Shown here: positions 6,457-27,424 of the stretch, one piece after another
Layout: each line of letters opens with the position of its first letter
Numbering within the stretch: position 1 is the first letter of the stretch
Assembly: GCA_011503125.2 (NCBI GenBank)
Contig: WWBZ02000007.1
Location: 496,001 to 560,000 of the forward strand
Reading direction: 5' to 3'
Source of the DNA: Botryosphaeria dothidea
Lineage: Eukaryota; Ascomycota; Dothideomycetes; Botryosphaeriales; Botryosphaeriaceae
DNA: 64,000 nt
The notes under the pieces: model-generated
Databases searched by the model: none
What the model saw: the letters and a program-made list of their open reading frames with translations, nothing else
What the model was told of the DNA's origin: nothing
Made by a program: the position numbers and the translations under genes

Positions 6457-7982
6457 CTAACCCGTTATCGGCCCATCATTCGGTCCATTGAGGTTCGAAA
6501 TGAAAACCACCAGTACGGCACAATATGCGGCTGATGCTGCGAACAGCTCATGCCGCTTGGCTTTCGTGAGAGAAGACATGGCTGCGGAGAACAAAAGGGT
6601 AAACACGACCAGAACGCCAATGGCAGTGAATGTGGAAGAGCGTGTGCCAATGCTGGTTAGCTGGTACATGACGACCACTGGCAATACCAGAAGAATGAAG
6701 ATGATGACGGTGATGATGAGCGCGACAAAAGACTCTACTCGTTTTGCATCGTAGTAGTGAAGATGCTTCTTATCCTCAGTCTTCTCCAGCAGGTCTCGCG
6801 GCTGGAATATCCGCTGCAAACAAATAGGAGTCAATGAAACTTTCTGTAAGAATCGCAACCGGCTCGATGCACACTTACTCTGACTAGTGCGCAGTCGCAC
6901 TTGGTCAACATCCTCTCGACAAATCCGTCAAACCCGGCCCACTCCCTCCCCTGGCGCAACGTAAGCATGTCTTGCCACTGCTGCAGCGAATACCACTCTT
7001 TCTTCACCAACGGCTTCCAGTTGTTGAACCACGTGATAACGCTGGTGTAGTCGCGGTTGCTCGGCCGCTGGAAGGCACCGGTCTCGCGCGTCTTGATGAG
7101 TATCTCGTCTGCAGCAACGAGCATATCAGAACAAAAAAAAAAACCGAAGCACCACAAGAGCGGACGAGAGAAGGAGTCTACGGACCATACTCGACGAGCC
7201 TCTGCCGGATGTCCGCGACGATGCGCCTCCTGGTCCGGACATTCTCGTTCCTCTTCTCTTCCTTGCGCGCGTCAATCTCGTCGCGCTTCCACGACTTGAG
7301 CCGGCGCTCCTTCTTCTCGTCGGCGGCGTCGCGGGCGTCGGCGCGCCGCAGCTCCTGCTCGAGCTCCGAGAGCTCGTACTGCAGGTCCAGCAGCACCCGC
7401 GCGTGCAGGTACTCGAACTTGCGGTAGATGCCGAAGCTCTCGTCGCTCGACTGGAAGGCTGCCAGCCGCGGGTAGCCGCAGGGGTACTGTTCCACTGCGG
7501 AACACACATACGGCGTTAGAGAGAGAGCTGCGGTTAGGGAAAGTGGTGGACAGGCACGAACAATGATTGCTGCTGTTGTGTTCCAGGAGAGTAGTGCAAT
7601 AGTGAATGCGAGTATGCGAAAGTTTAAGGACATCGTTCGGTGATGTTGCGACACTTTGGGGGGCATGGGATCATAGAGGGAGAAAGAAGTTTGCACGGGC
7701 AGGTCCCAGAATATATTCCCTACTTACATGGCAGAGTGCGTGCTCTTACGAGTTCTGCGTCTTCAGGCGGCTCTGCGTTGCCGACACCCTTGTCAGCGGG
7801 GCGATCATGTGGAAGCCATGTGGGACCAAACAACCTTCTGCGGTTGGTGAGTTGACGGCGAGTGTGGCCCGGCTGGGAATGTCTATGCAGAAGTCCCCGG
7901 AAGAGGCCGTGTTGGTGGCGGATGGCTTCCGCAGCTCGAAACTGCGGTGGGCATTATCCGCCTGGTTGGACTGTTCGTCCAT
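6457..7982 (-). CDS. DUF6594-type three-helix membrane protein (pair A)
   Basis: Fungal protein with a DUF6594-type layout; function unknown. Proposed exons, 5' to 3': 7982-7835, 7772-7728, 7494-7186, 7108-6879, 6813-6457 (362 aa). The last three exons are well supported because the paralogue at 26126-27424 has the same intron phases (1, 1, 0) and a third exon of the same 230 bases. The first two exons are less sure (donor gttgtt at 7834 is weak). Features in order: a polar N-terminus, the motif YPCGYPRLAAF, a helical stretch (YLHARVLLDLQYELSELEQEL), a highly charged region, the conserved block MLTLRQGREWAGFDG, then three hydrophobic helices at about 273-296, 306-326 and 333-350. It is transcribed away from the caspase-lipase gene, sharing its 1.3-kb upstream region. 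I infer a membrane effector or sensor partner of that protease. Confidence 0.8.
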
Positions 7983-9268
7983 TCTGGCACATTGGACAAC
8001 AAGACCGAGCAAGATAAAGGTGAAATGGACAAGGCCCTGATGGATTGCTAGTATGAATAAAGGCTGCAAAGCCTACAGTGTCAATCACGACGCGCGACAG
8101 GTAGTCGCAAAGCTGGACTCAGCCTCGCGGGCTTACGGTGGTCTCACCGGGAGGATTGCGCCCCCACATGACGCTCCCCACCGGAGACAGCCTTGGCTGT
8201 TGTGCGCAATCGGTGTGCAGCAGCATTCGCCAGCACAAGTCGTCACGGTCTATCAGGTATCTTTGGTTGTTGGTGACGGGCTTCGATTCACCATAGATAT
8301 CCCAAGCCCAACATTTCCGGCACGGCTGCGTATCTTTGAAGAAGAGCAGAGCCGCTCGACCTGCTGAGAATTGGAGAGGAAAGCCACCTTATCCTCTTTT
8401 TTGTCAACTTGGCCATTCTTTCACAATAGAGGTTCGAACTCGTTCGCTGTATCATTTGTCAAGCCGTGTTAGGAGATTCGAGATTCGTTCAGGTGTTGTC
8501 GGTTCGGGTGCAGCGGGCTCTTAAGGGTTAAACAGTCATCGCGCAAGCGGTAAAATGAAGGCTCACATATCAGCAGTCAAGGCGTCTCTAGGTGGGTTTG
8601 TCGCACTATGGTTAACTGGATGTCAGGCCGACAAGGAAACTGACGAAGGGCAAGGCAGACGAGGCGCACACAGCTCTTCAAGCGTGGCTAAATTACCCCT
8701 ACCCTTGAGCATGTGAAAGAAAAAGTGTTGGCGGGTAACATTGATTGGCCTAGGATCGTCTTTGACTTTCATGCGACGCACTGAATGTGTAGGGCTCCGC
8801 CTCTGTGAGTGATCGTATGTGGTTATTTAGGAATGCAGACATCCCACAGCCCAGGTGGCGGAGGCGAACATGGCCAGCTACAGAGACAGCTCACACCCAA
8901 TGCAGCACTGCCACACTTCGACAGAAGCTGACGCTGCGATTTGCTGTCAACAAGTGCAAGGCTCTCATCTGACTGCAGCCGCCAATACAATCCCCAGCGC
9001 AGGCTGGAAACCCTTCCAGTCCTTCGTCATACTCCCAAACTCTCGTCGGACTAACTCTCTATGTTGTCCTCTTTCATTTTCCTTCACGTACCGGGAAGAA
9101 AATGGCCTCAAAGTTCCGCAGTATAACGTGATTTCCCGAAGGCTCTCACCAGTTCAACCGTCTCCCTCGACTACTGCAGCTGCGGGTGCGGGCCGGCGCC
9201 GCTCTGACACCGAGCTCATTGGATAGAAACGGCAGGCTGCACTGTCCGGAGCTGCAGAGACTTTTTCC
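7983..9268. promoter_or_regulatory. shared divergent upstream region of pair A
   Basis: About 1.3 kb between the divergent starts of the DUF6594-type gene (7982) and the caspase-lipase gene (9269). No gene is recognised in it. Because both genes start outward from here, common control is plausible, but I could not identify a specific binding site by eye. The final 200 bases before 9269 are CT/CA-rich, as in fungal leaders. Confidence 0.45.
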
Positions 9269-12200
9269 ATGGCACCTCTCACACTGGAAACAGAGGAAAG
9301 GAACCGATCCGAAAAGCTCCAGGCACAATGGTCTGAGGCAATATGTCGGAACATGGACTTGCCGGAAGGCTACGCGCAGGTCGCAGTACTCATCATCAAA
9401 TGGGATGAGCGCATTGACGAGCTTAAATGTGCGGAAGAGGTTAGTTGTCTGGGTATTAGTCGTTACATGCATAGGGTCTCGTGCTGACTGAGTAGCCTGC
9501 AGGTTAATGAGTTAGAGGCGCTCTTTCGTGACGACTTCCACTATGAGACAAATATCATCTCACTGGACGAGAAGTCCTCGCCACATCATCAACTTATTCA
9601 TGCAATGAGCGGCTTCCTGAGGAAATTCGATGGCCCAAACAATCTCCTCATAATCTACTATACTGGGCATGCAGGTTACAATAAGGAGAACGGCGAGTTG
9701 GAATTCTCTGCGTAAGTCAACAGTCATCCTGCAGAGCCTGGGCATTCTCTGACATAAAATCCAGAAGGACCAACTCAGCTGCGGCCTCGAATGCAAGCTG
9801 GAATGTGGCAGAAACCCTCTTTTTGAAGGGCACACAAGCCGACACTCTCGCTATCCTGGATACATGTTATGCAAGCAACATCACCAAAGGAGCAGAGTAT
9901 ACTGGCAGGGCATACCAATTACTTGCGGCAAGCGCATATGACAGGATGACGGCAGGTCCAGGCCATAAGTCCTTCACGAACGCCATGATTGAATCGCTCA
10001 GAGAGTGCTTGGTTGAGAACAGTCAAGCCCCTTTCAGCCTCTGGAAGCTGAGCACCAAGATCAACGAAAAGCAATATCGCCGCAAAAATCCTTGCATTCC
10101 TCACGACAGATTGAAGAAGCATGACCGGCAAATATTTCTCGCGCCTCTAAAAGAGAATAAGGGCAAGCGTGAGGAGAACAGAAAGGTGTTGAGCGAAAGA
10201 ACCGGCGTCGCAGACCTGACACTCCGATTTGCCCTTGGAACCACGTCCTTGACCCGGGAACGTATCGAAAGGCTGTCCAAGGAGCTTCCAAAAGCCTGTA
10301 ATGCTGCGGATGTAAAACTGTGTTCGATTGACTGGGTTGGTTTCGAGAGACGGCCCGTGAACTTTGCAGCAGCTGTCCGCGCATTCTCCTACGCCCGCCG
10401 TTGGCTTCGGATGACTCGGGGGAAGAAAGAGGACCTACCTCAAAAGGGGAGTGTTGCTAATCCGACCGGAATTGACAATGTTCGGGATCCTGCGCACCAG
10501 GAAGCTACTTCTATCAGGGTAGGTGTTACTAAAATGAAATCTGACGGCACCAATTCAGCCACGGATGTTGTCTTAACAAGGAGACTGGTGTCTCCAGACT
10601 CAGAGCGACCAGCACCCGACAGCAATGAAGATAATTCCCCGTCCGGAGTCCGCCGCAAAGAATCCACGCAGCCGAGCGTTACACCAACAAGCATAGGGCT
10701 TCAATTGACTAAGACCAGGATAGATGCAGCACGGGATAAGCAGAGCATAGCAGGGCAGGCTCGCACCAGTGCCAGTGCCAGCCAGCGGCGTGCAAATCAA
10801 AGCAGTATCCTTGCCCGTGTTCTTGCAATTAGGGCACAGCAGGTGCAAGAAGGTTCCAAATCTCCTAGGATTAATCAAAAGCAGACTGAAGAGTCGACCC
10901 TCATACCACCGACTGTGAAGGTAGAGACCACATATGAGGAAGCGAACGTCAAAGTCCAGCGCTTGCCCATTGTCGGGCCTCGACCGATCATGACCAAACC
11001 TTCATGGACAAACCAATCACGAAAACGTCCACGACTATTCACATCTAGAGAGGGCAGTCTTCTAAACTTTAGGCTAAGAGGAATTCCCCATCACTACCAA
11101 AGTGAAAGTGATGTTCAGGCGCTCGTCATCAATGCCCTGTCCCTCGAGCCTGAAGCGGATCTTGAGGTTTGTTCGCTTGCGACCAACCCTGTCGAGCGCA
11201 GCAGCAGAGTTGCTACAATTGTCTTCCAGGATGTGCCGCCTCCATTATCTGGAAACCCACGAAATCAATGGGTTGTACCCTTGCCCAACATCGACGATGA
11301 TGACGGCGATGCACGTGGCTCCCCCAGGAAGCCTCTTGTCTTTGACACTCATTTTGCAGGCTTCACACCTCTCCAACACGCTGATGAGGAAGATTGCCAC
11401 ATTGAGTAAGATATAATAGACTATGTCACGTATTATTGCGCTAACATAAAATTGTAGCTTGATCGCTCTATCTGGCCTTGGAGGGCATGCGTTTGGCTCA
11501 TTTAAGGACAGAGATGGGACATTTATGTGGCTTCGAGATGCTCTCCCGCTCGATATTCACGATTTCAGGATCTTGATATATGGATACGACACTCGGACGG
11601 CCCATAGCAATTCATTTCAAAATTTGCTTGATCTGGGCAGGGCTCTACAAACTGACATACGGACTGTCAGGGTAAGCGTCAACTCGCGTTGATTTGAAAA
11701 CGACTTTTTTTGCTCACAACTAGATGTTCAGAACCTCAGTCGACATCGTCCGTTGTTATTCCTCGGCCACAGCCTAGGCGGGCTTGTGATCAAAGAGGTC
11801 AGTCGATCTGACGTAGACATGTAGACTTATCTGACAACCCCAATACAGGCAATAACACGAATGAGGGAGGACGAGCACGAGGAAGATGAAGAATTGCTAA
11901 AGTCAGTTGTTGGGTTCGTATTCTTTGGTGTGCCTCACCATGGAATGACGACCGAATCACTCGTACCGCTCTTCCAAGATCAGCCGAACCGAGCTCTCCT
12001 TGAGTCCCTTGGAAAGAACTCTGATCTCCTCTCGCGCCTACAAAAAGACTTCGACAAAGCGATTAGTGCACAACATCCTGAGGTAGTCTCATATTATGAG
12101 ACGGAAAGCTCTCCCACAGCGTGTAAGGTTAGTATCCGACGCAGTTTTTTTTTTTTTTTTTTGGCGGAAGTCCTCTCCCCAAACTTAACAAAAATCCATC

Positions 12201-12495
12201 AACGCTCACTATAAGATAGAATGGAGACAAATGGGAAATGTCCGGGTCCTTACAGGTCTTAGTTGACCGAGAATCCGCGGTTTGCGGGAGTAAAAGTAAG
12301 GACCAATATCCCCTTAATCGGAACCATTCGGAAATGGTCAAATATTCCAATCCCTTTGATGAACGCTACACAAGGGTCAAAGCGACGCTTGAAAGACTTG
12401 CAGGGCTTGCTAGACCAGCACCTGAAGTTGCAAAGTTCCCACTCCTCGGGCTATCTGTCTTCATTAGCAGTTTGATGCGTAGGTTCTGGGAATGA
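9269..12495 (+). CDS. caspase-like protease fused to SesB/SERAC1-like lipase (pair A)
   Basis: Two-domain candidate cell-death effector. Exons 9269-9439, 9503-9711, 9765-11405, 11458-11671, 11732-11797, 11849-12127, 12220-12495 (951 aa); all junctions are GT..AG and keep frame. Residues 30-260 are caspase-like (peptidase C14): beta strand VAVLIIKW, catalytic His113 in IIYYTGHAG, catalytic Cys161 in LAILDTCYAS. Residues about 276-344 form a module shared with the paralogue (LTLRFALG, LPKAC). A long polar, probably disordered linker follows. From about 558 comes the module that precedes the hydrolase in fungal SesB/NLR proteins (FRLRGIP, FAGFTPL), then IALSGLGGHAFGSF, the nucleophile elbow GHSLGG with Ser759, FFGVPHHGM, and His896 in NRNHSEMVK. 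No NACHT/NB-ARC or repeat domain follows. The last exon's tail (after about residue 920) is uncertain. Divergent from the DUF6594-type gene. Confidence 0.85.
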
Positions 12496-13137
12496 TGATG
12501 GAGATGCCAAAGTGAACCCGTCAATTCAGCCAAAAGAGCGAAAACAGATCAACTCCCGACGGCCTCTCCTACATGCAGAACAAGGCGGGATGCAAAGTAC
12601 AACCAGACTATGCCTGAGTCGGCCAGCAGATTCATCGTTCTGACCATTGAAAGGGGTTTATTCGGAAACCCTTCAAGATATCAACGGAAAACCTCGCGTC
12701 CGGAGGTAAAGGAACGGTTTCGAACTTTCCGATGCAATGGTTATGACAGGTAGCACAGGATGCAAGCAGCTGTCGAAGAAATTACTTACGAGCTTCTGAT
12801 CCAGAAGCCTGAATGCGCTGGAAGAATGTCGGGAAGACGGGCCTCGAAGAACCAACAGCAAGAGATGTTGATTGGGGCGTAAGACATATTCCAGTGGATT
12901 ACCTTGATTTTCATGATGGTTGATAAGCATACAGGTGATATATCTTCGTGATCTGGTTTCCTGTTCTGGCTTACTCTCTGTCACTTCCTAGGACTTATCA
13001 AAAACACGGGAACAAGAATAACATAATTACCTATGTCCATAAATTGTACAAGATATTACCTTTCTGCATATATCATGGGTATCTTAGAACCACATCTTCT
13101 CCATCTCCCTCCTGCCTTGTCTACCTCCATTGACACG
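12496..13137. other. convergent intergenic spacer
   Basis: Region between the facing 3' ends of the caspase-lipase and kelch genes. Short frames are seen but none is recognisable; it may include an untranslated or mis-modelled 3' end of the caspase-lipase gene. Confidence 0.5.
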
Positions 13138-15253
13138 CTAGCTCTCCGTCCGCTCGACCTTTGGGCTATCTCCCTCCATCTCCACCGGCGCCAGGATCTC
13201 CCTCCCATCTGCCTCTCCCACAACCCGCACCCTCCCATCCGCCTCGCTCACCCCCGTCCCGGGATCCAACTCCGCCCTTTTCTCTGTCTGTTGCTGCTGT
13301 GCATACCCATCACCGCCATACCCACCCTGATACGCCGCCGTCCCCATTTGGTGATTCTCTCCATAAGCCCCCTCATCCGTCTGCGACACAATCTCCCCCT
13401 TTCCCGCATTCCTCTTCCTCCTGCGCAGAACCAACCACCCAATAAGGCCGATCAACGCGAGTCCCGCAACACCGCCAACCACACCGCCGACGATGCCGCC
13501 GGTATTCGACGAACCCGATGACGAAGAAGAGCCGGTGCTGGAAGACGTAGCGGAGGAAGTCGACGAGGCGGTCGACGCGGCACGGGCGACGGTGGTGGCG
13601 AAGATGGAAGCGACGGCCGTGTCGTTGAATCCGCCATCGGGTTGTTTGATTGTTGCGCCGCCGGAGCCGCTATGTCGGTTGTCAGCATCCATGCCCTTGC
13701 TTATTTTTTTTTTTTTCGTTTTTCGGAGTTTTCATGAAAAGGGAAAAACGTACTCTCCACCAATAACATTCGAAACTTCTTCCGGCACGCTGTACTCAGC
13801 GCTGGCATCGAAACTCTTCTGCCACGTCATGGTCGCGAGGTTCAAGATGCGCAGCGGCGGCAGCTGTGAGTCGCAGACGTGGTCCGACTCGGTGCCGTTC
13901 TCGTTGACGATGCCGCCCAGCACGATCATCTGCGAGTCGTTGTGCACGGCGCACCTGTGCTGGTGGCGGCCGCGGTTGTTGCCCGAGAGCGCTTCCGTGT
14001 TCGAGCCCGTGTAGTTCGAGCTCGAGATCTTGATCCAGCGGAAGCTGGGGACGCTGAGAACCCAGGTCTCCGAGTACGCCTCGTCTGAAAACAAATTAGT
14101 TCCTTTTTTCCCTCAAAATCTTTCGAAATTTTTTCTTCAACCCCAGGATCAACTTACGCTGATACAAGTTCCACCCGCCGTACATGGCAATGTTAAACGA
14201 CGAATAATCCGGCGCCGCCGACACCACCGCACAAGTCTCCGACCTCCGTCCGGGAATCTCGTCGCCCTGCGCCCAAACGACATTCCAGCTGGCGCTCGCA
14301 ATGTCGTACACGTAAATCCGTTCGTTATCCAGCACCTGATACGAGAACGCCGGCGCGCCCGTCGTCGCGTTCACCTCGGTCCCGTTGTACCCTCCCCACA
14401 GGAGAACCACGCCTTGCTCGCCCATCGGCACGTACACCATGTTGCCCGCCACGCGCGCCGGCACGGCGACGCCGGAGCCGCTCGTCGCCGTCTCGTTGCG
14501 CCACGACAGCGCGTCCGGGCTGGAGGCGTCGAAGCGCAGCATGCCGGTGGGCTGGCCGGGCTGGAAGACGCCTGAGTTGCTGCCGCCGGAGAAGAAGGAC
14601 AGGCCCGTGCTGGGGACGCTGGCGGCGCCGGGGAAGAGGCGGTTCAGCTTGTTGTAGTTGCCGCCGGAGACGGAGTGGCTGGACCACTGGCTGCTCGTCG
14701 TGTTGTACATGGCCAGCACATTGTTTTCGGTGGTTGAGCCGTCGCCCAGGCCCGCGAAGACGTAGAAGGAGTCGAGGGTGGTGAAGAGCGCGCCGCCCTG
14801 GTTGTGCGTTTGGTTTTCGAGGGTCGAGGTGGTGTCGAAGGGGACGGAGATCTGGTTGAGCGAGGAGGAGGAGATGATGCTTTCGGCTTGGATGTTTGTG
14901 TTGCCGCTGAGATCGAAGTAGAATAGGTTGTCATCTGCATCGTGTCAGACATGGCCGAGGAAGTAGTAGAGGGCTTGTGCATTTACTAGAAAATGTTTCG
15001 CCATTGGCATCGCCGTCGAAATGGTAGTCGCCGCCCATGAAGTATAACCGGTCGTCAATCATAGCCACTGTCGAAGCCGATTAGCGAGAGCCCACGGCAA
15101 TGGTAGCGAGATCGACTGACTCTTCTGGTTGTTGATGTAGCAGAGATCTCCATCGGCGCGACGCTCCAGCTTGCTGCCAGACTCGACCGGAGACGCGCGA
15201 GCATGCTGTAGGGCTAACGAAAGCCATAATGATGCTCTTAATGACGCGCGCAT
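13138..15253 (-). CDS. kelch-repeat single-pass membrane or cell-wall protein
   Basis: Predicted surface protein with an extracellular kelch beta-propeller. Exons 15253-15121, 15067-14987, 14934-14158, 14084-13754, 13669-13138 (617 aa), all GT..AG. Residues 1 to about 21 are a signal peptide (MRASLRASLWLSLALQHARA). Kelch-type blades are recognisable by motifs such as LYFMGGDY, FYVFAGLGDG, VVLLWGGYN, FNIAMYGGWN and MIVLGGIV, each followed by a Trp/Tyr-containing strand (SWNVVWAQGDEIPGRRSETCAVV). After the propeller comes a Ser/Thr-rich stalk, a Gly-rich transmembrane helix at about 499-522 (GLALIGLIGWLVL), a basic LRRRKR stop-transfer and a polar cytoplasmic tail. This layout is common in Dothideomycete cell-wall-anchored proteins; a sensing or adhesion role is inferred. 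It neighbours ceramide synthase on the same strand, with no sign of joint function. Confidence 0.87.
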
Positions 15254-16885
15254 TGCAAGTAGCACTCTCCAAAGACACGGACTCAGGAAAGGAACGAAAA
15301 GGAGCAGCAGCGCGAGGAGGTTGTCGCTGTGGAGATACCAGCAAAGGCGCGTTCCAGCAAGCGAGGGTATCCAACAGGCAACAGGACGTCAGATGTAAAA
15401 TCGAGCAAAGACCCACGAGTCCAGGATTCCCAGGCACGCGGGGCTGCTCGGGTTTTGTTAGATTGCAAGCATGTCAAGCAAAAGGGAGCAGCCGTGGCGC
15501 CATGGTAGCACTACGACTGATGAGGGAAGGGGAAGAGAGCTTGTCATGGGCATCTGTCCGGGAGCCACGAGTCCGAAATAGAATTGCACGAGGGAAATAA
15601 TCGGGGGCTCAGCGAAGTTGGGCGTCGTGATAGGCTGGGTGCAGTGTTTTGGCCCCCAAAACACACAGTGGCGGTGTCTCCGGTCGCCGAAGGATCGTCC
15701 TGGCGAAGTGAACGGCCAACGGACGATTTTGTTTTTCGTGCTGCGGAGCGCTGAATTGGACCAATGGATCGTTTCGGCACCAGCGCTAAATGATACACGG
15801 CCATATTGCGATCAAGACGCCCGGTGTCAGCAATCCTTTGTGAGCACTTGTTGTTATTGCATCGCCTTGCTTTTGAGTGCCACGAACGAGTGTAATCTGG
15901 ACGAAACCGCGTGCAGCATGAGGTTTGAGACGATTGAGTCAATGGCCAATGGCTTGCGCGAAGAGCGGAGTATATGGCAGAGCAGGCAGTTGAGATGGAG
16001 AGGACATGGCCAGCTAGCAGGAGCCGCATGCGTCATTGGCTGAGCTGACATGCGCCCAATGCCGGTCTTCCCACAATCTAACAAATACCCGCTCACTTCC
16101 TGCGATTTGCCTCCCGCCTATCTCCACTGCATCTGTCCAACTCCTTGTCCGATCTGATCAAGATACTAGCGAATCCCCATCGGAAATGTTCCCCAGAACG
16201 TCACCTTCGCCAACGCAGTACCATAGGCTCACGTGCACGCCTTGTATCCTACAGCATCGAGAAAGGAGCGAACGACGCAGTCAAAGAAGAAAACCCAATG
16301 TACAATTCATTTCGACCGTTTTGCCGGCATTTGCATGTCCCGAAAATCCTATACGTGCCTGTCTTCCCGCCCCCAACCCTTCTTTTTTGATCTCCATCCA
16401 TGCCGGGCCAAATTTTTTTGCATTTCGTGTTTTCCCTTTTCCCCGCCTCAAAACCGCCGTTGTCTATCGTATGAATGAGAACTTGGGGGGAACATGTAGG
16501 GACTGGTGCTGTGGGGGTATTTTCTAGTAAATGCTCCGAGAATTTCTTTCCTGAGAACCAGAATGACCTTTTCTGTCTGCCTTCTTCCCCTTTTTTCGAA
16601 AGAAAGAATGCCATGATTGTTGATGAAGGATAATGATAAACCAAGGGTAAGCGGACAGCACAAAAAGAACCTATGTACGCCGTTTCATCTTCCTTTCCTA
16701 GTGAGAGTAACGCAACACCGACTACTCTCACATCGTACCGCACCGACGTCGTAAAACAGGACGGAGACAGGGACACAGCGACGCGGGAAATCGTTGAGGA
16801 AACAGGATCAACCCATTCCCTCCTGCGCCAGCCTTCAGTCGAAAACCGGGACCAGCAGTTTCGACGTCCCCTCGTCGCCGTCTTT
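15254..16885. other. intergenic, no gene seen
   Basis: 1.6 kb between the start of the kelch gene and the stop of ceramide synthase, both on the minus strand. It contains the kelch promoter and the ceramide synthase 3' flank. Short frames on both strands show no family motif. Confidence 0.5.
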
Positions 16886-18642
16886 TTAGTCCTTCACCGG
16901 CTTCTCGCATCCAATTCTTCCAAGAAGCTCCTTGCGGTCGCTGGAGCCGGAGATGCTGATGCCACTGGCACGGCTGCTGCTGCGCTTGTAAAGCCTCTCG
17001 CTCCTCCTCCGCGTCGGAGTTCCGAAGTGCAGGCCTTCGACGCCAACCTCTTCCTCGAGAGGCTGCTGCTTGAGCGACAAAGACGCCTTGCCGCCCTTGG
17101 GCTTGCCGTGGCCGCTAATGTCGCCGTTGCCGTTCTCGTACGTTTCCTCTTCCTCATCGCCCTCGTCGTCGCTGCGCGTGTCATCGGCCCCCTGGCCGCT
17201 CAGGACCCTGTACGCGACCTTGATGATCATCCACAACCAAACCAGCGTGATGACCTGGAGGCCTCCGAGCAGCCCGAGAAAAGCCCAGCGAATGCGCGAG
17301 TTGAAGCAGACCGGGCCCTCCGGATCGCGGAACGGCTGCAGAACCTCACGCATAATCTCATTGCCGCCATCGGCTGGAGTCGTCGGGGAATCGGGAAGGC
17401 GGTCGCCGGAAACGGAGTCGTAGCATCCATAGGGCATCGCGATCGGGACCGTCGCGTAAATCGACCAGCACACCATGATGTACAGGCAGTGCCGCGCAAT
17501 GACCCAGCTGGCAATGAAGATGCCGAAGCCAATGTCGCAGGCCGTCTGGTAGCCGAGATATTTGAGGAGCTTGGCGCCCTGTGCGAAAAATTAACGACTG
17601 CGTAACCGTTGGGACGCCGTGCTCTCGCGCATCCCGCGAATCACACAACGCGCAATCCCACTTACCGCAAGAAAAATATCCACCACATCCATGAGGCACA
17701 GGATCACGTTGCCGACCTTGGTCTGATAGTAGCTGTAGCTCATCGACACGAGCGCGCTCGTGATGATGTGGTGCGTGAACATCTGCCAGTGGTCCTTCCG
17801 CCTCTCCTCCATGTTTATGACGAGGATCTGCTGCAGCCAGAAGGCGAACTGCAGGAGATAGTAGCCCTTCATCAGGCCGCTCATCGCGCGCGTCGGGAAG
17901 TGGTTCCAGATTTCGTAGAGATTCAGCCAGTACTCCGAGTTGTAGTTGATGCACTGTGGTCGCACGGTATCGCGGTCAGCACATGCACACTACAGCGTGG
18001 CAGCCACCATGCGACACAGTGGCTAGCCATTGATGGCGCGGTAATTAAAAAAAATGTCTCACCATGCCCAGCGTCCAAAAAATGGAGCAGTAGATCAGCA
18101 ACCAGCCCTGCTCGGCGAAGCGAACCGTCGCCTTCTTCTTCTGAATGCCGCCCATGCGCGCCAGCGGCTTCAACACGTAGTCCATGGTCGCAGCCCTCAG
18201 CGCGGTGAAGACAATGATACCGAAGGTGACGAAATGGAAGTCTTCCCAGCCCTGCGTATACTGGCCGCTGGCGGCATCGTAGTAGGACAGCTCGAAGAAC
18301 TTGCGGGTGGTTGTGCGAGCGCGCGGGAAGCAGGTGTGGGTCAGCGCAAGCAGAAGCAGCAGATTGACGGAGAGGCCTGAGACCAGCGTCAGCTTGGGAC
18401 TTGCATCGAAGCTCAGAAGTAAGCAGCATACCAATCTGATGCTGCTCGAGCCACGCGCAGAAGGCGCCGAACAAGGTGTCACCGCGGGACTTCTTTCTGC
18501 GCACCTTGATGAGATGGGTGCTGCCGTCGGCGGCGACGCCAGAGAGCAATTGTGTCTTCTGCGCGAGGGTTGGGACACCGTCCGAGTCCTTGTCCAGCAG
18601 GACGCGGGTCTCCGTCGCAGGCGAGGCGGCGGCGTGCTCCAT
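16886..18642 (-). CDS. ceramide synthase (Lag1/Lac1, TLC domain)
   Basis: ER membrane enzyme that N-acylates sphingoid bases with fatty acyl-CoA to make (dihydro)ceramide. Exons 18642-18432, 18376-18063, 17953-17666, 17578-16886 (501 aa), all GT..AG. After a polar N-terminus with the basic patch KVRRKKSRGD there is a first hydrophobic helix (LSVNLLLLLALTH), then the TLC region: SIFWTLGM, the Lag1 signature around NSEYWLNLYEIWNHFP, and the catalytic His pair H236-H237 in HWQMFTHHIITS, followed by YYQTKVGN and LCLMDVVDIFLA. More membrane helices follow (FIASWVIARHCLYIMV; LGLLGGLQVITLVWLWMIIKV). The C-terminal tail is acidic (DDEGDEEEETYE) and then Ser/Arg-rich, as in fungal Lag1 proteins that are phosphorylated there. 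The family is certain; which paralogue (Lag1 or Lac1/BarA type) cannot be told. Confidence 0.95.
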
Positions 18643-19619
18643 GGCGGGCGAAGCTATATCAGAACCGCGGGGGCCGGTCTCGAGGAGGAGGGGGAGCGGG
18701 AGGGGGGTTGCAAAGTGTTGGGGGAAGCTCGAATGAAGCAGGCCCGCACTGGCATGCGCAGAGCTGCGGTTTTCAGGCTTGTGTGGGGAGCTCGCTGTTT
18801 CACGTCGAGGCGGTGTACCTGTCCAGATCTGAGAGCTTCAGACACGTCGTAGAGCTCGCTGGCAGTGGTTCTCGGGGCCAATGGGCGGGCAACGAGCGCG
18901 AGGGGACAGTTGGAGGCTTGCTCGCAGTTGCGGGCGGCAGTGAGGACTCGGGCGGTGTTGCGGGGAAGCTCTGGCACTCGAGCGCTCGTCGGCGGTGGAC
19001 TGAGATGCGAAAATTGGCCGCCGTGCTCTTTGGGAAATCTGCAAGGCCGCGGAGCAAGGCAGTTGCAGGGTCTCCCCACCAGCCAATCTGCGCCCTTGCA
19101 ACCCCCCTCGTGCACCGCACCACGCCCAAAGAGCAATAGGGGCGGCGTGCGCGCGTCGATCCGCACAGTTTTCCGCTTTTTGGTCACTGCGATATGCTCC
19201 AGCTGTGCTCTACTCGAGGCAGATCTCCGCTCGCCGCAAGCCCAATTCGCGTCCGTGTGACCTCGCCGAATCACTCCCGTTGCCCAGCCTAAACAGAATC
19301 TCTCGGAGATCACTGATCGTGCGTGAGCCTGATTCGAAACAACCTTGTCATTATCCTCGCTGGGGAGAATCCAAAAGAATGTGTATCTACAGTCTAGGTG
19401 TTTATGCGGCGCCGCTATCCACTTACCCGCCTGGGCGCTACTGACCGCCACCTCCTTTCCCGCCGTTCTCCAAAGGGTATCAAGTAGTGTCAAGGAAACT
19501 TGCAAACGAACGCCAATCGCGCGATGCCAAGAGGAATGCCCGCGCGTAAAACCATCTACCAATCTGAATCTCAATCAAAATCCCGCTCCAAACTTTTGTC
19601 CTGTACAACCCAATCTGCG

Positions 19620-19650
<31 letters not shown>

Positions 19651-19736
19651 TTGCTCTTTACAGTAGAAATACAAATAAACATAATAAGAAACGATCGTAG
19701 CTCATCAGTCCCAACGGACAATATACACACAAAAAA
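18643..19736. other. intergenic with a 31-base poly-C tract
   Basis: Holds the ceramide synthase promoter and the MDM34 3' flank. A run of 31 C occupies 19620-19650, about 90 bases past the MDM34 stop, so G-rich in the MDM34 transcript sense. No gene recognised. Confidence 0.6.
19620..19650. repeat. homopolymer C tract, 31 bases
   Basis: Uninterrupted C run on the + strand inside the predicted MDM34 3' untranslated region. The complementary G run could form a G-quadruplex. Its exact length is a likely sequencing or assembly error point. Confidence 0.9.
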
Positions 19737-21488
19737 TTAGGCAGCGTAAGCCGGTGGTGCTTCCAGATCTTCTTCGTCGCGCCGGTCCCAGAAGCTGGCC
19801 ATCGGGTCCGCGCTACCGCTTCCCTGGCGAGCCTCGCGCTTCTTTTCGTCGCGCACCTTGCGCGCAATCTCGTTCGCCATCTTCATCATCCACGCCTGCT
19901 CCAAGATGCCACCAGATGTTGCCGCTTCACTGTACGGAAGAGCGGAACCCTGAAGCCTGACGTTGGATGACGCAGATGAGTTGTACGAGTGCGTAAAAGG
20001 CGACTTGACGTCCCTCGGGAAGGACCGGAGCGGAAGCGAGGACGTGGCTGAGTGCTGGGTCTGCGGACGAGAGGAGGAGGGAGCGTTGGCTGTAGATTCG
20101 CACTCTTGCTCAGTTTCCTGCAGCTTCGAAAGCGCTGCTGCCGATGGCACGGTCGCCGGCGCTGGCGATTTTTCGATGCTGTTTTTCCGGGCCCGTTGAC
20201 CGGATTCGCGAGGAGGCGTCGTCGGGGGCGTCATAAGGTCCTCCTCGCGTTCCTCAGGGATGACCGACGAGCTTTCCGACGCGTCGACGCTAGGTTCGGG
20301 CGTCGTAGTGTCGGTAGCAACACTCTCCGTATCTGTACCATCCTTATTGCGGCGCAAGTTGACCACTCTTCTCTTCCTCTTCCGTTGCGCATGTGCACGA
20401 GATCTGCCTCCTCCCAGGCCCAGGCTCGAGTATGTAGAGTTGGAGCTTGCCAAAGTGGGTCGCGACAAAATACTGCCATTGTCTGTGCCCTCAGAGACAC
20501 TGTAGGTGCTCGGCGATGTAACTCCGGAAGCCGAGTGGACGCGCGAAAGGGTTGACGAGGTAAGCGGGTGAAATGTGTGCGCGCCAGCAGTCTCGGCCCG
20601 ATCAGCGCTGCTAGCCCATGCGCGGAAGACGGTGTCTCGAATCGAGGGCGTGAACAGGGAGAGGGTCCTATGGGAATCGTTCAAGGCAGCGAGCCGGAGC
20701 AGGTTCTTCTGAGAGAACGACGCGTGAATCTCGGAGGACGAGTCCAGGGAAAAGGATGAGATTTGGCTGTCATCGAGCGGGTTGCCATACAGATCGACAG
20801 GGTCCTGCGGAGGGCTTGCAAACGGGTCGACAGGGGCGGGAGTGTCAGTCCCGCTCCGCTTCGCGTTGTTGATCATCTCATCCATTTCACGGTACTCTGG
20901 CGACCAGAGACGCAGAGACAGACGATGCAGAATGGCCGGAAGATCCTCCATAAACAGTACTCGCAACTGCTTCTCGATTTCCTTTTGCAGGTAGTCCCGC
21001 ACAAACGGTATGGAATCGAAGGTCGACGACACTTTGAGAGACTCTAGAGGATCGTTTCGGAAGACCAGAGTGAGGCCTTTGTGGCGGGAGAATACGAGGA
21101 TGACGAAACCGGAGAGACGGATGTCGGAGAGGGTGATTTGTAGAGGTATGGTCAGGCCGTCGGCCGCAGCAAGAGGTTGTGGTGATGCGAAGTTCGGTTT
21201 TGTCGATAGGTAGGTATTCAAAGGATTCGCTTGCACGCGCGTCTTGAGGGTGAGAAAGGCATCGCCGGAGTAGGTCATCTTGAAGATACCGCGGAAACGG
21301 TCCTCGGCCAGGTCACCAATCTCTAGTATTTCCAACTCTGGAGGGACAGCTCCCAGGTTGAGCTCTGTCACGATGATGTCGTCGACGATGATGGGAGGCT
21401 TCGGGGATTTGTTCAGCGCGGCCGTCAGCATCTCGCGTGCACGCGAGGTGTCGGCGATGAGCGGCGACCAGTTGAAGTTGAAAGCCAT
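19737..21488 (-). CDS. MDM34: Mdm34, ERMES complex subunit
   Basis: Mitochondrial outer-membrane subunit of the ER-mitochondria encounter structure, where its SMP domain takes part in lipid transfer between ER and mitochondria together with Mmm1, Mdm10 and Mdm12. Single exon of 583 aa. The N-terminus MAFNFNWSPL is diagnostic, and residues 1 to about 200 make up the SMP-LTD domain (DDIIVTELNLG, LEILEIGDL, FRGIFKMTYSGDAFLTLKT, ITLSDIRLSGFVILVFS, KGLTLVFRNDPLESL, FLQ-like DYLQKEIEKQLR). The rest is low complexity: Ser/Thr/Pro-rich, with the basic cluster RKRKRRVVNLRR that is typical for fungal Mdm34. A conserved helical end (EQAWMMKMANEIARKV) comes near the C-terminus. The start is unambiguous because of the conserved first ten residues. 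No intron is visible. Confidence 0.96.
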   Translation of the reverse strand: MAFNFNWSPLIADTSRAREMLTAALNKSPKPPIIVDDIIVTELNLGAVPPELEILEIGDLAEDRFRGIFKMTYSGDAFLTLKTRVQANPLNTYLSTKPNFASPQPLAAADGLTIPLQITLSDIRLSGFVILVFSRHKGLTLVFRNDPLESLKVSSTFDSIPFVRDYLQKEIEKQLRVLFMEDLPAILHRLSLRLWSPEYREMDEMINNAKRSGTDTPAPVDPFASPPQDPVDLYGNPLDDSQISSFSLDSSSEIHASFSQKNLLRLAALNDSHRTLSLFTPSIRDTVFRAWASSADRAETAGAHTFHPLTSSTLSRVHSASGVTSPSTYSVSEGTDNGSILSRPTLASSNSTYSSLGLGGGRSRAHAQRKRKRRVVNLRRNKDGTDTESVATDTTTPEPSVDASESSSVIPEEREEDLMTPPTTPPRESGQRARKNSIEKSPAPATVPSAAALSKLQETEQECESTANAPSSSRPQTQHSATSSLPLRSFPRDVKSPFTHSYNSSASSNVRLQGSALPYSEAATSGGILEQAWMMKMANEIARKVRDEKKREARQGSGSADPMASFWDRRDEEDLEAPPAYAA

Positions 21489-22946
21489 GGTCGGTCGCGA
21501 CGCGTCGGCGCAGCTCAGCGAGAAAGTTGTGGTGAGCTGGAGGCGTGTGCGCGGATGACGAAAGTTAAGGTAGACAGGGTCGCGTGCCGGGTGATCGGAG
21601 CTATGCCATCAGCTGGACGTGGGCGGTGGATTGATGCAAGACAGGGTGGGAGCCGTGACGGCTAATATAGCTAGGGCTGAGGCTGGGGAGCGACTCAGTG
21701 GGCCGGATGACGGGGGATGGGGAGAGGAGGATGTTGTGGTGTGACGACAAGAGGATGTGCGCGCGGAGAAGAGAAGGCAAAGGATTTCTTGTCGGCCGGG
21801 AGCCCACGGACCACCTGCTCTGCTGCTTCCCCGAATGCTCCCGCCTGCCGCAGTCTCGTGCGTCATACGCGCTAATCATTTCAGGGCAACACACAACACT
21901 CCCTTTAAATTGCAGTCACAGCCTTATCCATGATAGCCCGTCTCCCTATAGGGGTGTGCATGAACGCGTCCAGTTTAGCTTCGCTCCTCCACGGCAAGTG
22001 TGAGTCAACCTCTGGATGATTTGTTCGCGGTGCTATGCTTTCCCCAAGCTCACCGACCCCACACCATCGCCCACTTTGCGGCCTCCAGCGCCAACAAAGC
22101 ACTTGCGCCAGCTCCCACTTGAGACAGACCCGCCGAATCGAAACAAAACTCAGGAAGGTGATCACCGTCAATGCTCTTTGATGACGGTCACGACCCTCTC
22201 CGTCAGTCCGCATCCCGAGTGGCCGCTGCGCCGCCTCTTCTCCGCACTTGATGGCTCCCACTAGCGCTGATACTGCCACCCGTCCGCCTCAGCGCCATGA
22301 CGGATGCGTTCCAGGCCCATGAACACGTCTGCTTTGTCCCGGAGCCTGCTGGATGAACCTGGGAGGGGTCGAGTTTCTCCTTCCTGAAAAGACCATCTGC
22401 AACGACCAATTGGCCCAGGCCCTGAGAACGGCATTTTTAGCCACTTCTCACATGACATGCTGTCAGGATACCGTTGTAGACGGAGATTGTCCGACATGGC
22501 CTCAGCGCGCCGGTCACTGCGTCAGCGCGGCATCTGGACGAGCTCCAGCACGAGGTGGCCCGCGCTGAGGGCCCAGTGCTCAGTGCCAACGAAGCACGGA
22601 TGAGAAAATCGGCCTGAGACGAGTCTCGCCGACTTGCGGGTTCCAAGGCAGGAACCCTCCGAACGATTTTCATCATGGCCGTGGACAGCGTGCACACATG
22701 CCAACACAGGACTTCTTAATTACCTTCCATGCTAACCATATGCATGCCATAGAGGTGAAAATCACATTTCCCGCAGGGTATCCAACGCCACAAAAACATG
22801 AAAGGCCTGAAACAAGGACCACCCGTACCATGTCCAAAGCATGCAAACTTGAGGTTACCCACAGATGAGCAACAAATCCCCAGTGCTCACTACCGCATTG
22901 AACGGAGCTGGGTTGAAGATAGATGAAATCAAAAAAACAATGCATA
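21489..22946. other. intergenic, no gene seen
   Basis: 1.46 kb covering the MDM34 promoter and the 3' flank of the pair-B caspase gene. Short frames in every phase look like shadows, and no motif was recognised. Confidence 0.5.
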
Positions 22947-24664
22947 CTAAGGGAAGCGACAAGTCCACCTGGCAAACAGCGAATCTTTATGAGTGACTAA
23001 CATTGCCAAGGAAGCGATGCTGACGACCACGATAATGAGGACTGCCATGTAATCAAGGATCAGGACTCTCCTATAAGTGGCACGGGGTCCTTTCAAATGA
23101 AGTGGATTCGGCCTGGCACTTGCGTAAGGATATCCGCCACGGCCTTCAGCGTCGAGGCACGTTGGGTTGATGAACGTATTCTGAGATCTGATGCTGGCAT
23201 CGCTCGTCTCAATATTGATTGAAGGTCGTCCAGAAAAGGGTAGGCGTTGCATAGTCCCTTCTTTGGCGCTTGGTGCTTCGTCCAGCACCTCGAGGGCTTC
23301 GTTGTACTGTGATGTATCGCCCCTTGACCGCCCGGCCATTTGGAAACGAGAAGCAGCAAGTACAGCCTTCATGGACCTGCGTAGACTTGCGTTTCGCTGC
23401 AGCTTGAAATCTCTGAGTTCGATGCCGTGCAAATCCATACCAGCCCTTTTGCAAGCATCGGGAAGGTATTTGGTCAAGGCATCGATATGTGTGTCCGTCA
23501 ACTTTCTGCAGCTCTCTCCGAAAGCAAAACGCAGCGTGAGGAATGATGCGCTCTGCTGTTCATTGGCAAGACGTTTGGATCTCTGTTTCTTCTCAATCTC
23601 GCTGCTGTCGAGCGGACTGAGTCGAATATATCTCTCGTTTTGTTGGAGACGATCGTAGACGTAGGAAGGGCTATTATGCCTCGGGGGGTGCATGTTGATT
23701 CTTTCGCACAGCCTCCAAGTAGAGAAAGGCCGACCAAGATTGCGAAGGTCTCGCAAGGCCTTGATCAAAGCCGCCGTGAAAGAGTTCTTTCCTGGGCCTG
23801 ATGTCACCATATCGTGCCCGCACGCTGCAAGGAGCTGGTAAGTCCTGTTCCCTTCCATTGCGCTCTTGTGAGCATGCGCAGCGAAACAGGTGTCCAGAAT
23901 TGCAAGAGCGTCGGCTTTCAACCCTTCAAGAAGACTCTTCTCTGCTTGATGCCACTGTGCCTGAGCAGCTTCCTTCCCTTTGCCTACAGTGAAGCCTGGA
24001 GTGTCTGGGCTTCTCGGTGGTGTTTCGCTGCAGATGACGTTAGTCTCAAGGTCTTCCAACGCCGCGTGTGGGAAGACTACTCACGCAAAGAATTCCAACA
24101 AACCACTTTCAGCACTAGTGCTTCTCGCTGATACCTTGCGATATTTGGAATGTCCCGTGTAATACACGATCAGCAGGCTTCTCGGTCCATCAAACTCGAG
24201 TACAAATCGCGCCATTTCGAAATTTAGCTGTTGCTGAGGAGATGTATCTGTGTGTAGCTCAATTTTCCGAGTGCAATAATTGAAGTCATCTTTGAAAACT
24301 TCTTCCAGCTCCGCGACCTGTTTTCAAATCAGCTTGTATATACTGGAAACTCTGGGGCCATGGCACATACCTCATTCTTGGTATTCAGTTGATCCAGATC
24401 ATCACGCCATTTGATGATAAGTACCGCAACTTGGTCGTAGCTGTCAGAGAACCCGATGTTCTCGGCTATCCCCTCGTTCCATCGGAGCTGCAGCTCTGAA
24501 GCCTGCTCCTGAGTTTTGCTCTCTTGGCGAAGGCTACCGGGCAACGAGACAGGGATGCCGTCTGTACTAGAATGCAAGAGCCCGCCCGGGCTTGTAATGT
24601 CTGTTTCCGAATGGCGCCTGCGACCCGACGTCTCGAGACGCTCCAGGTTTCTCTGGTTGCTCAT
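22947..24664 (-). CDS. caspase-like protease with C-terminal membrane anchor (pair B)
   Basis: Paralogue of the protease part of the gene at 9269. Exons 24664-24371, 24317-24085, 24027-22947 (535 aa), GT..AG, with the same two intron phases (0 and 2) as the first two introns of its paralogue. Residues about 70-320 are caspase-like: VAVLIIKW strand, catalytic His154 in IVYYTGHS, catalytic Cys223 in LAILDTCFAA. The loop between them is 21 residues longer than in the paralogue. Residues about 336-406 repeat the module seen after the paralogue's protease domain (LTLRFAFG, LPDAC). In place of a lipase, the protein has a short polar linker and one transmembrane helix at about 497-520 (DYMAVLIIVVVSIASLAML) with a short basic tail. 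This suggests a membrane-tethered protease. It is divergent from the second DUF6594-type gene and its small neighbour. Confidence 0.87.
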
Positions 24665-25511
24665 GGTGCTGCCAATGGGGTACAACAGTGACTGTATGGA
24701 AGAGATCCTATTGATTCTTCACAAAAGTTGCTGATTCGACGCCTAGCTTGGTTTTAAATTACTACTAAAAAGGCTGGCTGGCTCTGCAAGGCCCCATCAT
24801 GACGATAATGCAGCTCTTTCAGCCTTTCATGAATATTTTGCGCTCAAGAACTGCGCCTTGCCAACCAAAAGAACACCTGCATCGACGATCGATAAGATTC
24901 ACATGCTATGGATGTTTGTAGGCTCTTCTGGCTAGGAAAACTTGTGGTTGCAGGCGTTTGCGATCATTGCCTGTCTTTGCTTTTCTTGCTCATGTGTTCA
25001 CCAATCGGCCCCCCACCACGTTCTTTGTAAGACAGCGGCGCTGGCGGCGTCAAACAGCAATCGTTTCCAACCCTCCTGAAGCCTCATGCATCGGCAAGGC
25101 TGATATTGCCTGTTTGCCTGATTCCTCATCTTTGAGAATCTGCATGGCAGCCACAGTCGCTCCACCAATGAGATTTGCAGCCGAATGGCGCCACATATGC
25201 AGTCACCCGGGCAGTGCTTCCCGCGGCCCCCAAGATGGCGTGCGTTGATTTTCGTGTCGTGTCTTACAGTAGTTACAATCGGAGAAGGTGCTGGGGCGAG
25301 TGTTTGGTGGCAAGGCTGATCCAAGAGCCGCAAACTGAAAGACTTGCATTCATAAATGCCTCAGAACCAATGGATTCACCACAGCAGGAACGCACTAACC
25401 ACTCTGCACACCGAGCCAACGCGGAACGGTAAGGTATCAGAAGTACAACCACATACACCAAGAATTCAAATCTGCCTTGCCGTCGCTTCAGCTTACGCGA
25501 GGCTACCAAGC
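24665..25511. promoter_or_regulatory. divergent upstream region of pair B
   Basis: 847 bases between the caspase start (24664) and the first exon of the small unknown gene (25512). Both flanking genes point outward. No specific site was identified, and no recognisable protein is encoded here. Confidence 0.4.
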
Positions 25512-25945
25512 ATGTCCGAACAGGTAAGCAAAGCCGGCGCATTTCGGCATCCCACATCTTCTTCCGAGCAGTTCTCTCACCTGTAAAAGTTTCAGCCGAC
25601 GAGTCCTCCCCTCTCCCCGAAGAAATCCGGAGTGGATGCGAAAGTCAATCCTGAGCTGGTAAGCGTGGGACGCCATCGAACATTTGTCTATAGCGCTGAC
25701 ACACATGTGAGGAAAACCCTGCCGCCTTCGCAAAGGGCAACAAAGTTATCATGGCTGTCTCTGAGATCTTGAAAAATGGGGATACAGAACGTAAAAGAAA
25801 GGAGTTCTTGGTTCACAAACAACGGTGGAAGGAAGCGGACGGAAACAGCGGGGAGTGGTTATACCAACTTTCGAGCAACGGCGTTGTATACAAGTCAGAT
25901 GGCACTGATTGGTTCCCGGAGAGCAAGATACGCCTTGCGCAATGA
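25512..25945 (+). CDS. small protein of unknown function, 102 aa, between pair B genes
   Basis: I do not recognise this gene. Proposed exons 25512-25523, 25596-25658 and 25712-25945; both introns are GT..AG in phase 0 (donors gtaagc and gtaagc), which is better than chance. The product starts MSEQ, has a Pro/Ser-rich patch (PTSPPLSPKKSG), then a charged helical part (AVSEILKNGDTERKRKEFL) and a compact C-terminal part with Trp and Tyr (GEWLYQLSSNGVVYKSDG, TDWFPESK). There is no signal peptide or membrane helix. It lies on the same strand and only 180 bases upstream of the DUF6594-type gene, inside the divergent spacer of pair B; pair A has no visible counterpart. It could be an adaptor or inhibitor of the neighbouring protease, which is speculation, or an unrelated gene. 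The third exon alone could also be translated from 25751. Confidence 0.5.
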
Positions 25946-26125
25946 TAGGTTGGAAGGAATACGCGGCTGAAGTTTTGCTGTCGCACATGCGGAGCCTGGC
26001 GCTTGACCGGCGATAGATAAATGGATTCGAAAACCCCGCATCATCCTTTGAGCGCCTTCAAGGCGTACAGCTGCATTTCCCGTCGATTACTGACACTAAC
26101 TTTGTCTCTCTTTTATTGTCAGAAG

Positions 26126-27424
26126 ATGACTTCCCAGGAAAGGAGATCGGACAGCATTCCAGTCCTATCTCCAAGCAGCACAGTGTTCTCTGGAGAGGCT
26201 ATTATCAATATTGGAGATGATTCGAAAGGAAAAGGCAAAAGCCAAGATAGTAAAAGTAAGCCACATGCGTGTCATAAGAATAGGCTATTGACCAACGTCA
26301 GGGCGCTGGGGGAGGAGATTTCTCCCCTCGAGGCTTTTGAAATCCTCGCCGGGGCACGTGCGTCGCATCAAGACTCATGATACCACAGTGCGCAAGTGTA
26401 AGAACACCTTTGGATCGGTCGATGACATAACCACTTATGTCGACGAACAGTAGAGCAGTGTCCAAGGGGGTATCCCCTTGTTGCCGCTTTCCAGTCAAGT
26501 GAACCTTGCTTTAGCCTCTATCGAGGATTCGGTTACCTTCATTCACGTGTGCTGTTGGATCTCCAATGTGAGCTCGCAGAATTAGAGGATGAACTGAATG
26601 AGTTCGACGAGTTGGACGACTCACCGCGAACCCGGATTCGTCTTCAGTCAAGGTCACAGGATGCAATGTTTGCAAAGAGGCAGGCTCCAGAAAGAAGTCG
26701 CCGAGATATACTCTCAGAGATCAGAACAAGACTCGTGGAATATGGTAGCTTCCCTTCTTCAGGCTAGTGTCCTCAAACATCTGACGTAAATGACAGATGA
26801 GCTCCTGATAAAATCCCGTGAAACCTCGACATTTCAGCGTCCCTCCGATCGGGATTACAACAGTGTGAGGACTTGGTTCCACAACGAGAAACCTCTGACA
26901 GGCAACGATACTCGATCAATAAAGTGCAAGGAAGACATGCTTACTTTGCGCCAAGGAAGAGAATGGGCTGGATTTGATGGGCTAATCGAATCCTCATTGA
27001 GAAAATTTGATTGCAAACTCATCCGCGTACGTATTGACTTTAATTAAGAGCGAAGAGCGTTGCTTACACCTTACAGGCGATCTTTCAACCCCGAGATTTG
27101 GCACAGAAGACCAACGATGAGAGCATATATTACTATTCCGCAAAGAGGGTTGAGTCCTTCGTTGCCATTATCATCACAGTGATCATTTTCATTCTTCTCG
27201 TTCTGCCCGTTGTTGCGATGTATCGATTGACAAGTCTCGGAGGCAGATCATCAACGTTTGATGCAATCGGTGTGTTAGTAGTATTCACGCTTTTGTTTTC
27301 TGCAGCCATGTCATTGTTGACGAAAGCTAAACGTCACGAGTTATTTGGCGCATCAGCGGCTTATTGTGCGGTGTTGGTGGTCTTCATTTCGAATTTCAAC
27401 AGCCCATCTGATGGCGCGCAGTGA
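26126..27424 (+). CDS. DUF6594-type three-helix membrane protein (pair B)
   Basis: Paralogue of the gene at 6457-7982. Exons 26126-26357, 26451-26744, 26797-27026, 27077-27424 (367 aa), with phases 1, 1, 0 as in the paralogue. The joined codon at the first acceptor gives LEQCPRGYP, matching LEQYPCGYP of the paralogue, which supports this exon choice. Order: polar N-terminus with the short hydrophobic motif AIINIGD (residues 25-31), CPRGYPLVAAFQSS, helix GYLHSRVLLDLQCELAELEDEL, a charged variable region, MLTLRQGREWAGFDG, then three membrane helices at about 280-303, 313-333 and 340-357. The membrane segment is nearly identical to the paralogue while the region before it has diverged and is shorter. 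A longer in-frame start at 26021 is possible but is less supported. Function unknown; inferred partner of the protease at 22947-24664. Confidence 0.82.

Follow-up and report, generated by a model that had tools for sequence, protein, structure and literature searches.

Recurrent linkage of caspase-like protease and DUF6594 membrane protein genes in Botryosphaeria dothidea, a candidate protease and membrane-effector module

Two divergent gene pairs in the window

The window analysed here is a stretch of 64,000 nucleotides from Botryosphaeria dothidea in which, as the first-pass annotation had claimed, a caspase-like protease gene and a DUF6594 membrane protein gene lie head to head twice, between positions 6457 and 27424. 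The order, DUF6594 (minus) and caspase-like (plus) followed by caspase-like (minus) and DUF6594 (plus), forms a mirror arrangement of two divergent pairs that are separated by approximately 10 kb with other genes:

6457..7982, minus strand: DUF6594 membrane protein, copy 1 (exons 7982-about 7769, the tentative first, 7494-7186, 7108-6879 and 6813-6457; PF20237 E=2.6e-64 on the core)
7983..9268: intergenic region of pair 1, between the divergent genes
9269..11405, plus strand: caspase-like protease, copy 1 (exons 9269-9439, 9503-9711 and 9765-11405; from gene model, family alignment and homologue fold)
11458..12498, plus strand: C-terminal alpha/beta-hydrolase part of protease copy 1 (exons 11458-11687, 11724-11797, 11849-12127 and 12220-12498; PF05057 DUF676 E=2e-5)
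22947..24664, minus strand: caspase-like protease, copy 2 (exons 24664-24371, 24317-24085 and 24027-22947; from gene model and alignment)
24665..26125: intergenic region of pair 2, between the divergent genes
26126..27424, plus strand: DUF6594 membrane protein, copy 2 (exons 26126-26357, 26451-26744, 26797-27026 and 27077-27424; PF20237 E=3.1e-68)

The duplication within the window is old, since DNA similarity between the copies is almost erased, leaving a single 58-nt inverted match at 79%. The ORFs scanned in the intergenic regions, one in pair 1 (8041-8367) and two in pair 2 (24998-25360 and 25273-25644), belong to no Pfam family. Between the pairs lie a TLC-domain ORF, a kelch-like ORF whose Pfam match falls below the cut-off, and others that have no Pfam family. 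ORF 19737-21608 on the minus strand, for which the Pfam scan likewise gave no family, resembles by eye what we take to be Mdm34, a subunit of the ER-mitochondria tether.

The two window proteases are 42% identical over their N-terminal region and have their first two introns in common, in phases 0 and 2. The catalytic motifs YYTGH and DTC are retained in both copies, the His being encoded in exon 2 and the Cys in exon 3 of copy 1, and both DUF6594 genes have introns in phases 1, 1 and 0, counting for copy 1 a first exon that is tentative; the earlier claims of retained motifs and intron phases were thus borne out. In the Pfam scan, neither window protease matched PF00656, NACHT or NB-ARC at E<=1. 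The label 'caspase-like' holds on the evidence of these motifs, of PF00656, which 10 of the 14 family members match with E<=0.1 (3e-7 at best), and of the predicted structure of a homologue, which has the caspase-hemoglobinase fold plus an extra C-terminal alpha/beta part. G-H and D-x-C are invariant in the 14-row family alignment, which includes all six paired copies of this genome and leaves out one decayed copy at C3:579 kb, and the tails vary across the family. From these models, the first gene of the pair is predicted to encode a caspase-fold cysteine protease, C14-like with a His/Cys dyad, which in some copies carries a membrane helix near the C-terminus.

The first-pass annotation had also held that partner architecture is kept in both copies, which is correct for the DUF6594 proteins (PF20237, 68% identity) and not for the protease tails. 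Copy 2 carries a hydrophobic helix (hydropathy 2.78) that ends 14 residues short of the C-terminus, and copy 1 a DUF676 hydrolase, presumably SesB-like, with the motif GHSLGG. This hydrolase is joined via an atypical intron (11688-11723) of just 36 bp, where the reading frame is doubtful, and given the odd intron this end of the protein may be broken. The fusion of a DUF676-type hydrolase to a caspase-like domain (window 11458-12498) is an unusual combination.

Both partner proteins belong to the DUF6594 family, scoring 217.8 and 230.7 bits across the full PF20237 model against a cut-off of 30 bits. The first exon of copy 1 is tentative because its first intron joins only via a GC donor; it carries SGDFCIDIPSRATLAVN, which corresponds to the N-terminal motif of homologues and itself helped build the motif profile. 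In the predicted domain plan, a variable N-terminus, in which many homologues share a conserved motif, is followed by a long hairpin of helices and then by three membrane helices that are conserved at the C-terminal end; the membrane region is strongly conserved, with many invariant columns among 20 ascomycete sequences. The N-terminal motif, approximately SGDAII[DN]IDSRATTVVN, was found in 38 of 108 DUF6594 N-termini (domain E<0.01), 22 of the 38 having built the profile, and the N-terminus of window copy 2 fails the profile threshold. The motif may serve in assembly or interaction. A gasdermin identity for the partner was considered and rejected, as the structure model of a homologue is all-helical with zero strands, versus a beta-rich pore domain in gasdermin, and DUF6594 is the only family above the Pfam cut-off.

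Linkage across the genome and in other species

A PF20237 profile search of the genome (51.7 Mb in 78 contigs) gave 70 stretches, which we grouped by hand into 35 DUF6594 loci. When the genome was searched with both window proteases and two divergent relatives (E<=0.1), three of the four queries returned the same seven caspase-like loci, and one divergent relative returned six and no further locus. Six of the seven lie less than 2.7 kb from a DUF6594 locus, measured as gaps between matched stretches, where chance would place 0.05 of 7 within 5 kb (binomial P 1.2e-12, a figure that takes the loci to be independent, which duplicates are not). The individual gaps to the nearest DUF6594 are 1,795, 1,807, 1,986, 2,029, 2,648, 2,537 and 56,017 bp. 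For comparison, 1 of 150 scored HET-domain loci was as near (5 kb) to DUF6594. At E<=0.001 PF00656 marks a single locus in the genome, C36:1423 kb, which is a different gene and lies 190 kb from the closest DUF6594 locus.

Pairs occur at four sites outside the window, two on contig C1 and one each on C18 and C36. The two window pairs, on C3, are divergent, as are the C18 pair and one C1 pair; in the other C1 pair and in the C36 pair the two genes share a strand, the protease lying upstream. Adjacency in this genome is far above chance and the pairs are not confined to one duplicated locus, so neither of the two outcomes that the first-pass annotation had named as speaking against a module was observed. 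A HET-domain ORF (PF06985, E=7.2e-10; C1:5913.4 kb, minus strand) lies beside the caspase-like/DUF6594 pair at C1:5915, a neighbour that hints weakly at an allorecognition setting. Two of the 35 DUF6594 loci (on C36 and C78) fall inside a near-identical duplicated stretch: HET, MFS and DUF6594 matches recur between approximately 2.67-4.12 Mb of C36 and 1.78-3.24 Mb of C78 at a near-constant offset of about 885.7 kb, and one compared 8-kb stretch is 99.7% identical. This repeat is either a very recent duplication of more than 1 Mb or an assembly artefact.

The one unpaired protease, the third family copy on its contig (C3:579396-580358, minus strand), lies 56,017 bp from the nearest DUF6594 stretch, with none within the 30 kb read. 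It has IMDTNFIAN at the D-x-C site (Cys replaced by Asn), an in-frame TAG and an unrecognisable first exon, whereas the dyad is intact in all six paired proteases. That the partnerless protease has decayed is, as a single case, suggestive rather than proof. Conversely, 29 of the 35 DUF6594 loci have no family protease nearby. The family profile was run on the surroundings of 15 of these, 8-10 kb for 14 loci and 3.5 kb for one, and brought up no caspase-like gene (weak matches only, E above 4); the remaining 14 were judged from genome searches alone. In a DUF6594 tree that took in 13 of the 29 unpaired loci, the copy at C29:3956827-3957724, for which the surrounding 10 kb showed no protease, groups with the paired partners at C1:3138 and C36:1232 (support 0.79), and the partners on C3 and C18 fall within the external homologues, with deep nodes poorly supported. 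As most loci are unpaired and homologues far outnumber the proteases recovered by the protein searches described next, which miss divergent members, the DUF6594 protein may often act alone.

Protein searches with the caspase-like proteases, limited to scoring the top 7,996 word matches each and prone to miss divergent proteases, gave at least 11 distinct proteins. One is the window's own, one is near-identical to the C1:3135 gene, and six come from other named species. A DUF6594 search with one copy gave at least 500 homologues, and among the best 120 of 500 five of the six named species have a DUF6594 homologue on a contig of equal bp size; counting three further protease homologues that lack a match, the proportion is 5/9, with the window's own and the C1:3135-like proteins left out. 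In Glonium stellatum each of the two proteins is on a contig of 18,176 bp, and locus tags place them at 006965/006964 in Coniosporium tulheliwenetii, 007426/007427 in Diplodia seriata and 006135/006137 in Xylographa bjoerkii. In Aplosporella prunicola each is on a contig of 759,578 bp, which is weak evidence of adjacency, and the protease homologue of a Didymella sp. has no DUF6594 partner among the best 120 of 500. Read from contig sizes and locus tags only, the pairing appears in other species too and is not restricted to this locus. Because pairs are indicated in Xylographa, a Lecanoromycete, and in Coniosporium and Glonium, which are Dothideomycetes, the linkage would predate the divergence of the two classes, unless it was transferred.

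Protease and partner trees agree across 11 pairs (Mantel r 0.93, p 5e-5), a correlation that partly reflects shared species history; r is 0.92 (p 1.5e-4) without the short Diplodia pair and 0.91 (p 0.001) for the six pairs of this genome. Common to both trees are the groupings of C1:3135 with C36, Diplodia with window copy 2, and Aplosporella with window copy 1, while Coniosporium and C18 are placed differently and several deep nodes are weakly supported. Protease branches are about twice as long as partner branches. The matching trees fit a pair that would have duplicated as a unit, and a single ancestral pair may have given rise to every one of them, in which case the loci are not independent events. 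The earlier proposal of a functional two-component module stands insofar as a linked two-gene module is repeated at six of seven loci, four sites being additional to the window, with recurrence in other species read from contig sizes and tags. The caspase-like and DUF6594 genes very probably form a functional linked module.

What the protease may do to its neighbour

The best reading is of a protease that acts on its neighbour, given that the genes are linked and co-inherited, that the protease dyads are intact, and where the partner is predicted to lie, in the membrane. Our main interpretation, to which we give a probability of roughly 0.45, is that selection maintains the pair together as a module in which the protease activates the neighbouring DUF6594 membrane protein by cleavage. 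We infer the trigger, the cleavage, activation as opposed to inactivation, and cell death. On a trigger that may be cell fusion, infection or damage, the protease would turn active and cleave its DUF6594 neighbour in the cytosolic part, possibly at the loop of the hairpin; the membrane helices, freed or re-ordered, would permeabilise the membrane and kill the compartment. Several points run counter to this: most DUF6594 loci are unpaired, and the unpaired C29:3957 kb gene clusters with two paired ones; the Didymella protease has no partner among the best 120 of 500; the highly conserved DUF6594 membrane part is atypical of a fast-evolving effector; no motif common to protease and partner was supported; and the pairs may share a single origin.

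The same C29 gene bears on the opposite possibility, in which the protease degrades or clips DUF6594 to hold its level low and the loss of the protease, or the mixing of unlike alleles, releases the partner as in poison-antidote or incompatibility systems. A DUF6594 gene of the paired group that has no protease in 10 kb is hard to reconcile with a partner poisonous alone. Tight linkage that survives rearrangements suits restraint as well as activation, the faster evolution of the protease agrees with it, and fungal incompatibility via a linked gene pair has been described (PMC10890737, in the portion available); the decayed partnerless protease is compatible with either model. We consider restraint unlikely, and because a paired-type partner exists without a protease and the partnerless protease has decayed, we lean towards activation, which is not a demonstration. 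It also seems improbable that the protease processes or matures the membrane protein for ordinary membrane or organelle physiology, or that the genes are merely co-expressed, with no role in death. The strong conservation of the membrane region is more channel- or transporter-like than effector-like, and the TLC and kelch-like genes between the pairs mean that the surroundings are not a conflict-gene island. However, high copy number, decay, variable tails and fusions are usual in conflict and immunity genes more than in core physiology, and here there are 35 DUF6594 and seven caspase-like loci, one decayed copy, variable tails and one fused hydrolase.

Adjacency could alternatively persist by inertia, if one ancestral neighbour pair with no functional tie had been block-copied several times. 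The matching trees are what block copying predicts, but the copies occupy separate sites on C1 (two), C3, C18 and C36, orientation has altered while adjacency was kept, linkage is indicated in Lecanoromycetes too, and the sole unpaired protease is decayed; we regard inertia as distinctly unlikely. Least probable by far is mutual recognition of the two proteins by way of a short motif common to both, as in fungal NLR and HeLo proteins. The conserved DUF6594 N-terminal motif and, by eye only, similar-looking strings in protease tails would suit such amyloid signalling; yet the motif profile reaches at best -0.6 bits against 14 protease sequences, when shuffled controls reach 1.9 at the 95% point, and the window copy 2 partner is itself below the motif threshold.

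Under activation by cleavage, the fuller picture, which we put forward tentatively, would be a gasdermin-independent, caspase-triggered lytic death (or allorecognition) in ascomycetes, in which a C14-type protease cleaves and activates the adjoining three-helix DUF6594 protein. If true, ascomycetes would possess a pathway resembling pyroptosis whose components are not related to gasdermin, and a first role would be found for DUF6594, a large unstudied fungal membrane-protein family (at least 500 homologues of one copy). The strong linkage supplies a candidate substrate for each protease and a candidate protease for each partner, and bears on an old question of fungal cell death, namely which targets fungal caspase relatives cut to kill. 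The literature searched held no mention of DUF6594 or PF20237 and no description of the caspase-like/DUF6594 pairing. For substrates of such fungal caspase relatives, that literature, which includes part of PMC12881547, gave none apart from the CHAT-activated gasdermin of Podospora.

Relation to known protease and effector clusters

HET-Q1/HET-Q2 is a fungal gasdermin-protease two-gene cluster, and in bacterial gasdermin operons the protease is caspase-like. SLATT membrane effectors likewise have the effector gene beside its controller. According to the accessible part of a 2025 review (PMC12881547), a protease gene accompanies more than 80% of fungal gasdermin genes in a cluster, the gasdermin of one Podospora cluster is activated by a CHAT protease that bears TPRs, and such clustering is also found in bacteria and archaea. 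The gasdermin analogy drawn in the first-pass annotation is apt in layout, a protease gene adjoining a membrane-acting partner gene as in the Podospora CHAT-TPR pair and HET-Q1/HET-Q2, an arrangement present here at six of seven loci; it does not extend to the partner, which is not gasdermin-like but, in the model, all-helical with three membrane helices. Further differences are that the protease family matches C14 and not S8 or CHAT (Pfam), and that the Pfam scan gave no WD40, TPR or ANK repeat in the two window proteins.

As in bacterial gasdermin operons, a protease is linked to a membrane partner (a pore former there), but the partner family is another one and the genes here are eukaryotic, intron-bearing and mostly divergent. 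Like type I metacaspases and Peptidase_C14, the family has the caspase fold (homologue model), YYxGH and DxC; unlike them, it has an extra C-terminal alpha/beta part and variable tails, and the genome's PF00656 gene at C36:1423 kb is a locus separate from the family. Fungal effector genes also lie beside their controllers in NLR-HeLo/HET-s amyloid pairs (PMC9815663, consulted in part); in contrast to these, the window proteases have no NACHT/NB-ARC by Pfam, and the profile of DUF6594 N-termini supports no motif common to protease and partner. The caspase-like/DUF6594 pair would work like the clusters of a protease with a membrane effector, and by the tests run it is neither a gasdermin cluster nor a CHAT/S8 cluster.
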